From NCBI RefSeq assembly GCF_002198715.1, contig NZ_MWLK01000013.1:1-64000 (forward strand): a stretch of DNA of 64,000 bases. The letters are read 5' to 3'. Under the pieces are notes generated by a model, which searched no databases, was not told the origin of the DNA, and worked only from the letters and a program-made list of their open reading frames with translations. A program made the translations under genes and the position numbers. Origin of the DNA: Rhodomicrobium sp. R_RK_3. Lineage in GTDB: Bacteria; Pseudomonadota; Alphaproteobacteria; Rhizobiales; Rhodomicrobiaceae. This document shows positions 17,620-25,025 of the stretch, one piece after another (position 1 is the first letter of the stretch; each line of letters begins with the position of its first letter).

Positions 17620-19332
17620 CTAATGCGCAAACGCCTTCATGCCGAGCATGGCCAATTCCGTCACCACGCCGCCAAGCGCCATCGCGGCGAGCCATTGCAC
17701 GCTGCGCAGGATCAGACGCCAGTAATTCGTCCGCACCCTGACCGTAATCACCTGATCCGGCAGGGCGACATCGCCGACAAGCCCGTTCTGGTCGATGCTG
17801 CGGGCGGCGACGATGAGTTGCAGCCGGTGCTGGCCCGTCTGCATCGGCGTCACCGACCAGCGCCAGCGGCCATAAACCTCGCCGCCTTCGGTGCCATCCG
17901 GGCGGTCGAAGATCCACTGCGTCTCGGGGCTGAGCGGCTCGATCATAAAGCCGCTGTCGGGCGCGCGCAGGATCACGCTCATAGCCTGGGTGATCATGAT
18001 CTCGTGCCGCACCGGCTGGCCGCTGCCTTCGAGCCCGCGCGCCATCGCCTGCGTCTCTTCGCGCGAGATGCGCACTTCGATCCGCTCCGCCGACAAGGCG
18101 CGCATCCGGCGCGGGATATTCTCGATCAGCCGTCCGATCAGCGCCTCATGCGGGCGGGGCGCGCGGCGGCTCCTGCCCTTCTGGCGCTCGGCGGAGGCGG
18201 GCGTGAGGACCTTGGCCGAGGGCGCGGACCGCTGCTTGGCGCTGCGGCTCGCGGGCTGCACCGGAGGAGGTGCCGGGGCGGGAGCGGGCGCCGCAACTTT
18301 CGCCCGCCCGGCGCTACCGACGCGCATTTCATCGAGCCGGTTTTGTGATGGCATCTGCGGCGAGGGGCGCGGGGCGGAGGCGGCGGGCGCCGCCTCCCGC
18401 GCACCATTGACCGTCTGGCGATGGGGCGCCGGATTCGGCGGCGGCGTCGGGACAGGCGGCGCTTCGGGCGCGGCGCGCTGCTCCCTGCGGAAGTCGCTCT
18501 TATTCTCAACCGCCCGGGCCGCCGGCTGCGCGACCGAATGCGCGATGCGGGCCGCGGCGCCGGCCCCCTGGCCGGGGCGCGGCACTTTTGCCACCGGAAC
18601 CGGCGGCGGCGGAGGCGGCGCCGGCTCTTCCTCAGCCTCGTCTTCGATGACTTCGAGCTCCAGCTCGTCCGGCTCCTCGTCCTCCGGCTCGGGCTCTGGC
18701 TCAGGCTCGGGCGCACGCGGCGGCTCGCTGCGGACCGGCTGCGGAGCGGGGGCGGGAGGCGGCGATGGATCAGCCGCCGGCACGGATTGCGCTCTCGCCG
18801 TAGCGGTGCGGCTGCCATAGGATTGGCCGCGATTGCCGTAGAGCCAGGTCATCGCCGCCGGATAGGTGAAGCCGTTGCGCTTCAAAATGTCCGCAGCCGG
18901 ATTATCGCTCTCGCGCGACAGGGCGGACAGCACAAAGGCCGCGTCCACCTCGCTGCAATTCAGCCGGTTGGCGTCGTCAGACGCCGTCTGCAGCACACGC
19001 TCCACCTTGTAGCTGGCGCGCAGATCGAACTGGCCGGGCGTATAGAGCGTCGCAAGGTTGCGGTTGACCGTATCCGTGGCGTTGCTGCGAATGGCGGGAA
19101 TGTCGGCGCGGATGGCCTCGAACAAGGCCAGCGCGTCGGGATCGTCGAGCAGCGCCAAAAGCAGATGTTCGAGCGTCACATAGCGGTGCGAGCGTTGCTG
19201 GGCGGCGGAGATCGCACGCCGTATCGAAAGCGACAAATAGGCCGATTGCGGAAGATCGGTCATAAATCCCGATGTCTCGGCCACGCCTCCCTCCGGAGAA
19301 TTAAGCAACTGTGAACGCCTCATGGTTGACAT
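17620..19332 (-). CDS. Membrane protein with an orphan Clp_N domain
   Basis: The 570-residue protein starts with a Clp N-terminal double repeat (about 30-155; YVTLEHLLLALLDDPDA is the ClpA/ClpC hallmark) but has no AAA+ ATPase domain. A long Pro/Glu/Ala linker with strongly acidic and basic blocks follows (about 180-400), then a soluble domain (about 400-535, probably beta-rich: RWRWSVTPMQTGQHRLQLIV), and a hydrophobic helix near the C-terminus (about 545-565). ClpS-like or ClpA-like substrate capture at a membrane is possible (inference). I place the start in MSTMRRSQLL, since longer readings run into divergent argB. The exact Met is uncertain (19332, 19323 or the later MTDLPQS). Confidence 0.75.
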   Translation of the reverse strand: MSTMRRSQLLNSPEGGVAETSGFMTDLPQSAYLSLSIRRAISAAQQRSHRYVTLEHLLLALLDDPDALALFEAIRADIPAIRSNATDTVNRNLATLYTPGQFDLRASYKVERVLQTASDDANRLNCSEVDAAFVLSALSRESDNPAADILKRNGFTYPAAMTWLYGNRGQSYGSRTATARAQSVPAADPSPPPAPAPQPVRSEPPRAPEPEPEPEPEDEEPDELELEVIEDEAEEEPAPPPPPPVPVAKVPRPGQGAGAAARIAHSVAQPAARAVENKSDFRREQRAAPEAPPVPTPPPNPAPHRQTVNGAREAAPAASAPRPSPQMPSQNRLDEMRVGSAGRAKVAAPAPAPAPPPVQPASRSAKQRSAPSAKVLTPASAERQKGRSRRAPRPHEALIGRLIENIPRRMRALSAERIEVRISREETQAMARGLEGSGQPVRHEIMITQAMSVILRAPDSGFMIEPLSPETQWIFDRPDGTEGGEVYGRWRWSVTPMQTGQHRLQLIVAARSIDQNGLVGDVALPDQVITVRVRTNYWRLILRSVQWLAAMALGGVVTELAMLGMKAFAH

Positions 19333-19467: not shown

Positions 19468-20382
19468 ATGGACACGCCCGCACATCTCGACAACCCGCCG
19501 CTGAGCCCGCAAACCCATGCCGTGATTCTGTCGGAGGCGCTGCCCTATATGCAGCGCTATGACCAGCAGACCATCGTGGTGAAGTATGGCGGCCACGCCA
19601 TGGGCGACGCTGACCTCGCCACCTGCTTCGCCAAGGATATCGTGCTTTTGGAGCAATCCGGGGTGCGCCCGATCGTGGTGCACGGCGGCGGCCCGCAGAT
19701 CGGCAAGCTGCTTGACCGGCTGCAGATCAAGAGCGAATTCGCCGACGGCTTGCGGGTGACGGACGCGGCGACCGTCGAAGTGGTCGAGATGGTTCTGGCC
19801 GGCTCGATCAACAAGCAGATCGTCGCCGAGATCAACAAGGCGGGCGGACGCGCCTGCGGAATTTCCGGCAAGGACGCCAATCTGCTGATCGCGAGGAAGC
19901 TCGAGCGGCGCGTGCGCGACCCGCATTCCAATATCGAGAGCGTGCTCGACCTGGGCTTCGTGGGGGAGCCGGAAAGTGTGAACCCGCGCATCGTCGAGGT
20001 CATCGCCGCCGGCGAGCTGATCCCGGTTATCGCGCCGATCGGCGCCTCTCGGGATGGCGTGACCTACAATATCAACGCGGACACTTTTGCAAGCGCCCTA
20101 GCGAGCGCGATGAAGGTGAAGCGGCTTTTATTGCTGACGGACGTGGCCGGCGTGCTGGACAAGACCGGCAAACTGATCCCGAAGCTGACGGTGACCGAGG
20201 CCAGGGCGCTGATCGCGGACGGGACGATTACGGGGGGCATGATCCCCAAGGTCGAAGGGTGCATTGACGTGGTCGAGTCGGGCGTCGAGGGCGTGGTGAT
20301 TATCAACGGCAAGGTGCCGCATGCGGTGCTGATCGAGTTGTTTACGAGGCACGGGGCGGGGACGCTGATTGAGAGGGATTGA
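19468..20382 (+). CDS. argB: Acetylglutamate kinase
   Basis: ArgB phosphorylates N-acetylglutamate, the second step of arginine synthesis, and is usually the arginine-feedback point. The 304-residue product has the amino-acid kinase marks K39-Y-G-G-H-A-M, H72-G-G-G-P-Q, the [14 protein letters not shown] stretch and a conserved C-terminal GTLIERD. The N-terminal helix before the kinase core is the one that mediates hexamer formation and arginine control in long-form enzymes. It is divergent from the Clp_N gene across 135 bp. No other arg gene is in the window. Confidence 0.96.
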
Positions 20383-24608: not shown

Positions 24609-25025
24609 CTAAGCCGACCGCCACGGGTTGACGATCTCCAATCCATCGAAGCGGAAATCCGCCTCGTTGCGGGTGACGAGACGCAGACCGTGATGCAGGG
24701 CCGTCGCGGCGATCAGGCTATCGATGGCGCCGGGCGTGCGTTCCGCCTGAGCCAGCAGCCGGCCCCAGCGATCCGCGACGCCCTGCGCGACGGGCATGAA
24801 CCGGTCGCCGAACCAGGCCGGCAGCTCCTGCTCCAGCCAGAGCCGCAATCGCTCCTTGCGCGCCCCGCCCTGCAGCCGCTCGACACCCTTGCGGATCTCG
24901 CCGAGGCTGAGCACGCTGAGATACAGGGACTCATTCGGCTTGTCCTTGAACCAGGCGACCACCTGGAGGTTGGGCTTAGGGCGCAGCAATTCGGACACGA
25001 CATTGGTGTCGAGCAGATAGCTCAC
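24609..25025 (-). CDS. vapC: PIN-domain toxin, VapC/FitB type
   Basis: The 138-residue protein is a PIN ribonuclease with the four acidic positions D6 (YLLDTNVVSEL), E43 (SLGEIRKG), D102 (AIDSLIAATA) and D123. The SELLRPKP start marks the FitB-like branch. It should cleave RNA, often initiator tRNA or rRNA in this family, when freed from its antitoxin. Its start overlaps the antitoxin stop by 4 bases (ATGA), the standard arrangement. All catalytic residues are intact. Confidence 0.93.
   Translation of the reverse strand: MSYLLDTNVVSELLRPKPNLQVVAWFKDKPNESLYLSVLSLGEIRKGVERLQGGARKERLRLWLEQELPAWFGDRFMPVAQGVADRWGRLLAQAERTPGAIDSLIAATALHHGLRLVTRNEADFRFDGLEIVNPWRSA

Follow-up and report, generated by a model that had tools for sequence, protein, structure and literature searches.

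A Clp_N protein without an ATPase, with an Ig-like domain and a putative membrane anchor, in Hyphomicrobiaceae and neighbouring families

What does a Clp_N domain do in a protein that has no unfoldase attached to it? The question is raised by a gene in the window, the 64,000-nucleotide stretch of Rhodomicrobium DNA analysed here. The encoded protein is built, in this order, from a Clp_N domain, a Pro/Ala-rich linker, an Ig-like beta-sandwich and a C-terminal hydrophobic helix (Table 1). The reading that we favour, tentatively, is that of a tail-anchored, ATPase-free Clp_N scaffold which may hold Clp_N ligands, and ancestrally perhaps also PopZ clients, at the membrane. The reading frame is far beyond chance, as about 100 homologous loci retain both the frame and the domain order, with the exceptions listed below. 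An alternative start, GTG 19284, would give a protein of 554 aa; it is the likelier start, as it is preceded by GGAGGGAGG and aligns with the region where the nearest relative, L056, begins. A role in defence was considered, and no PADLOC family matched.

Table 1. Coordinates of the gene, its parts and its divergent neighbour in the window.
Feature	Position	Strand	Basis or remark
Whole reading frame	17620..19332	minus	570 aa from ATG 19332; stop 17620; homologues found
Clp_N domain, ClpA type, residues 31-173 of 570	18814..19242	minus	Pfam, predicted model, Foldseek
Disordered Pro/Ala/Glu-rich linker, residues 174-388	18169..18813	minus	Composition; many relatives carry the PopZ-type motif here
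Acidic stretch EPEDEEPDELELEVIEDE, the best yet poor PopZ-motif match in the window copy	18637..18690	minus	Score -2.4
Ig-like beta-sandwich, family-less, residues 398-534	17731..18141	minus	Predicted model, pLDDT 87
C-terminal hydrophobic helix, putative membrane anchor, residues 537-569	17626..17724	minus	Model, hydropathy
argB, divergent neighbour	19468..20382	plus	Pfam AA_kinase

The initial annotation had proposed a Clp_N domain of ClpA type that lacks an ATPase, and both parts of this proposal are borne out. Pfam PF02861 (Clp_N) matched in two stretches with 59.2 bits, the cut-off being 20.7 (E 4.6e-16), and it was the sole family in the Pfam search of the protein at E <= 10, in which no AAA+ ATPase family appeared. 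The N-domain of E. coli ClpA was matched by sequence (E 2.3e-11), and ClpA is the nearest protein among both curated models and solved structures. Against the full-length ClpA model the score is only 55 bits, where the cut-off is 993, which places the protein outside the ClpA/ClpC unfoldases. Residues 1-180 were modelled from 49 aligned sequences with a mean pLDDT of 84 and most of the core above 90, and the predicted fold is that of Clp_N. The top Foldseek matches were structures of the E. coli ClpA N-domain (1mg9_B, 1r6o_B and 1k6k; E 1.7e-8 to 5.2e-8), with TM scores by target of 0.86-0.90 and an rmsd of 1.4-2.4 for the top four.

The remaining elements had been described as a long charged Pro-rich linker, a separate soluble domain and a C-terminal membrane helix. 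The linker is evident from its composition (23% Pro, 20% Ala and 10% Glu over residues 176-388), and the soluble domain is found in the model of residues 390-570 (55 aligned sequences, mean pLDDT 87), which predicts an Ig-like beta-sandwich and, after it, a helix of 33 residues. The third element stands as a hydrophobic helix, yet it is only marginal as a membrane span: its best 19-residue Kyte-Doolittle hydropathy is 1.59, and the value is 1.6 or more in 29 of 71 family members, so a span is no more than probable. The searches assigned the C-terminal half to no known family. Pfam gave none for the C-domain of the window copy, Foldseek with the C-domain model gave no match at E <= 0.001, and a search of solved structures by sequence returned one chance match only (E 2.1). 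VIA-align matched many Ig-like domains; its best Z of 8.4, with complement, S-layer and filamin Ig domains among the matches listed, reflects the common Ig arrangement of the predicted model, and families outside that listing may match as well. DUF7363 (PF24063), which is Ig-like, gave weak matches in 10 of 55 members (best E 0.0024), and hhalign gave E 0.23 (probability 0.3%) against two members and E 0.41 in another comparison; on such weak matches, DUF7363 as a possible remote relative of the C-domain is a lead. DUF7363 was also seen in L171 and L172, proteins of CHAT type as we read their sequences.

Looked for across Alphaproteobacteria, the whole architecture recurs, mainly in one order, where it is found in Hyphomicrobiaceae and neighbouring families and is no local oddity. 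All eight genomes of the window's taxonomic family, from four genera, gave a protein match, some of the matched places being ClpA itself. A survey of the order with the C-terminal 192 residues found a match in 44 of 297 genomes. A class-wide draw found one among 385 genomes, the window's own, with at most nine candidates scored per genome, and absence there is no proof. Scanning the named genome collection directly with the window protein gave 60 pattern matches and no confirmed relative; relatives in that collection were found via a C-domain alignment of nine family members. This named scan yielded 64 loci, nearly all from Hyphomicrobium, Filomicrobium, Hyphomicrobiaceae, Methyloligella or unplaced alphaproteobacterial or proteobacterial assemblies.

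Clp_N and the C-domain share a single frame at 58 of these 64 loci; five of the six exceptions begin within 16 bases of the edge of the stretch, and the sixth, L156, has a divergent Clp_N start by eye. The same is true of 35 of 40 loci in the other locus set, where the exceptions are L062, split over two frames, L074, L084 and L087, whose short frames lie at a contig edge or close to one, and L088. The two sets overlap, some of their loci lying on the same contigs. Three observations stand apart. The full-length homologue at L156 (5090-7516) comes from an assembly labelled Myxococcales, and may reflect transfer or a mislabelled or mixed assembly. L088 (6311-7261) encodes the C-domain with an N-terminal hydrophobic segment and without Clp_N, and the full-length protein is encoded in that genome too; by this one case, Clp_N and the C-domain are separable. 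In genus g15 the homologue is directly adjoined by another Clp_N protein that lacks an ATPase and has a long coiled-coil-like tail (L082 7626-9659; also L083 and L085).

The usual site of the gene is between engB-yidC and a divergent argB (neighbour names were read from sequence, that of argB also by Pfam). Among the 64 named-scan loci, argB adjoins the gene divergently in 51, engB adjoins it convergently in 53, both do so in 43, and yidC is present in 55. The corresponding numbers in the other set are 26, 20, 19 and 20 of 36 counted loci, four of the 40 having been set aside for broken or edge frames; some of the misses are contig-end cuts or overlapping stop-to-stop frames. The window retains argB and has mutY at the usual engB position, and at the genus g4 loci (L057-L059, L061 and L062) neither argB nor engB is adjacent. 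Neither clp nor popZ genes turned up at the conserved locus. The initial annotation mentions neither this argB/engB setting nor the PopZ-type motif of the relatives described below. Whatever that motif does, the protein defines a family of Ig-like domains, so far unassigned, whose place in the genome is fixed in most carriers. Elsewhere in the window, a TerB-like protein (Pfam PF05099; 13969-14382, minus strand) adjoins the gene for class I lysyl-tRNA synthetase, and a small protein starting MSYLLDTNVVSELLRPKPN (24609-25025, minus strand) presumably resembles a PIN-domain VapC-type toxin.

This genomic setting bears on a first alternative, that the Clp_N domain has been repurposed as a helical module for peptide binding, unconnected with proteolysis, in a protein that serves inner-membrane biogenesis or budding growth. 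The conserved neighbours yidC, engB, rnpA and argB include no proteolysis gene, and the protein is restricted to a group that includes Hyphomicrobium and Filomicrobium, which are budding genera. However, these neighbours have housekeeping roles and the gene runs antisense to them, an arrangement that does not imply an operon, and the Clp_N core is well preserved. We hold repurposing to be rather unlikely.

The residues of the domain bear on a second alternative. In ClpA, E23, E28 and T81 are the positions that we take to be the ClpS contact residues. Position 23 is E in the genome's own ClpA and R in the window protein; among 56 members of the protein family, E23 is kept in none and E28 in 49, and T81 is replaced by S in 46. 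Four ClpA rows of one alignment (L018-L021) were dropped, as such rows came from loci that lay on the minus strand or broke off ahead of the N-terminus. Because position 23 is never E in the 56 members and is E in the genome's ClpA, simple ClpS docking is disfavoured and ClpS is doubtful as the ligand. The same genome encodes ClpA beside ClpS, as well as a second ClpS, and the Clp_N fold is intact, which would suit a decoy or sequestration factor that diverts ligands or small molecules from ClpA, here at the membrane. There is a precedent in mycobacterial ClpC2, a homologue of the ClpC1 N-domain that sequesters cyclomarin, according to excerpts of its description (PMC10030653). We judge a decoy unlikely, however, as E23 is lost throughout, sequestration requires neither an anchor nor an Ig domain, and the locus is constant in most relatives, unlike that of an inducible accessory gene.

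The favoured reading, a membrane scaffold, takes its ancestral PopZ clients from the linkers of the relatives. PopZ N-termini hardly vary within this order (EPSMEEILASIRRIISDD; 26 loci, 16 distinct 18-mers), and a position matrix built from them was used to scan each linker against 300 of its own shuffles. All 300 shuffles were outscored by 31 of 78 linkers, the other 47 being without the motif by this strict criterion. A score above 4.2 bits, that of the top non-family frame among the best 15 of 1268 background frames, was reached by 20 of the 78; this background still included some members of the protein family, which filled its top three places. The best match, EPTLEDMLATIRDVIDEE with 27.5 bits, is in L060, from the window's taxonomic family, and is PopZ-like over all 18 positions. 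Further matches are DRFMEDMLASVRSILDSE and DDGMDDMLASVRDILEAE, and STEEILASARERLQNR-like forms occur in Hyphomicrobium. Independently, when 92 residues of the window genome's PopZ, an N-terminal query, were searched against whole genomes, the homologue was the best match in genome G001 (E 0.0185), ahead of the PopZ of G001 (0.08); PopZ was the best match in the other six genomes. That the motif is merely a convergent amphipathic helix, used for example in membrane binding or self-association and sharing no client with PopZ, would fit the Hyphomicrobium form STEEILASARERVQSR, which diverges from PopZ in its second half, and the low scores in many copies, but it sits poorly with the L060 match and with the first rank of the homologue in G001, and we consider it quite improbable.

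Within the window's taxonomic family, six of eight proteins outscore all of their shuffles, and the window copy and L056 do not. A PopZ motif in the window's own protein was rejected, as its best score of -2.4 was reached by 5 of 300 shuffles; the L056 linker has no acceptable match either (91 of 300 shuffles reach its score). From these comparisons, we judge the PopZ-type motif to have been lost from the window copy. PopZ itself, as gauged by DUF2497 matches in a survey of the order whose scores were tabulated by hand, has diverged in the clade that carries the protein: the match is weak or missing in 23 of 24 genomes with the protein versus 9 of 97 without it, and strong in 88 of those 97. 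The association between the protein and a divergent PopZ is strong and most likely a clade effect, and for that reason it is not counted toward function. Paired DUF2497 matches about 1.4 kb apart in two genomes that carry the protein (G008:C2 131206-132607 and G059:C8 55610-57038) may represent a PopZ duplication.

Clients of Caulobacter PopZ include the ClpXP adaptors CpdR and RcdA. Excerpted reports state that the PopZ N-terminus binds eleven clients or more, CpdR included (PMC11519897), and that the client-binding helix is followed by an acidic proline-rich arm (PMC9512792). In the scaffold that we propose, the C-terminal helix would act as the anchor and fix the protein to the inner membrane from the cytoplasmic side; every domain would lie in the cytoplasm, the Ig-like one at the membrane. 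The disordered Pro/Glu-rich arm, some 200 residues long, would present Clp_N, which would capture a ligand, protein or peptide. The arm of most relatives from the window's taxonomic family would also display a short helix that copies the client-binding helix of PopZ, and on this basis PopZ clients and Clp_N ligands were probably brought together by the ancestral protein at a single place on the membrane. The window copy no longer has this helix, and only Clp_N and the membrane parts remain. The domains, the fold, the missing ATPase, the conserved locus, and the motif of the relatives and its loss in the window copy are observed, and membrane location, ligand binding and a polar or proteolytic role are inferred. 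Points against the scaffold are that the motif is missing from the window copy and, by the strict criterion, from 47 of 78 linkers, that the C-terminal helix is only moderately hydrophobic, that E23 is lost, that neither clp nor popZ turned up at the locus, and that Clp_N and the C-domain are separable.

A wider and more doubtful proposal is that the protein family forms a second membrane-tethered polar hub, in which the PopZ client helix and Clp_N gather PopZ clients, protease adaptors included, and ClpA-type ligands at one place on the membrane, and which couples polarity to regulated proteolysis in budding alphaproteobacteria with a diverged PopZ; the window copy would then be a derivative without the PopZ-type contact. 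If the motif does bind PopZ clients, the recognition helix of PopZ would be transferable and shared between proteins, and the family would offer a direct handle on the tie between polarity and Clp proteolysis in bacteria that form stalks and buds, Hyphomicrobium and Rhodomicrobium among them.

Among known systems, the N-terminal domain of E. coli ClpA (PDB 1k6k, 1r6o and 1mg9) has the same fold and belongs to the same sequence class as the window Clp_N. In contrast to ClpA, the window protein has neither the AAA+ rings nor the part that docks ClpP, its position 23 is not E, and its Clp_N is fused to a linker, an Ig domain and a helix. ClpT1 and ClpT2 are ATPase-free Clp_N-like proteins bound to the ClpPR core, and we know of no Ig domain or anchor in either. 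Excerpts of one report describe them as accessory proteins of a Clp system in plant plastids (PMC7966870). Mycobacterial ClpC2 is, in the excerpts of its description, likewise a partial ClpC1 homologue that resembles the N-terminal domain only; ClpC2 carries the homologous region at its C-terminus and is reported to repress its own gene by binding DNA, whereas the window protein has an N-terminal Clp_N, a disordered arm and a putative anchor (PMC10030653). The resemblance to PopZ (DUF2497, PF10691) lies in its N-terminal client-binding helix and Pro/Glu-rich disordered arm, which recall the linkers of many relatives; unlike PopZ, the window protein has no match to the DUF2497 oligomerisation domain at E <= 10. 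In the literature search, no ATPase-free Clp_N protein was described with a disordered arm and a putative membrane anchor, and none with a PopZ-type client helix. ATPase-free Clp_N proteins as such are already known from ClpC2 and ClpT, and what is new here is the PopZ-type motif in the linkers of the relatives.
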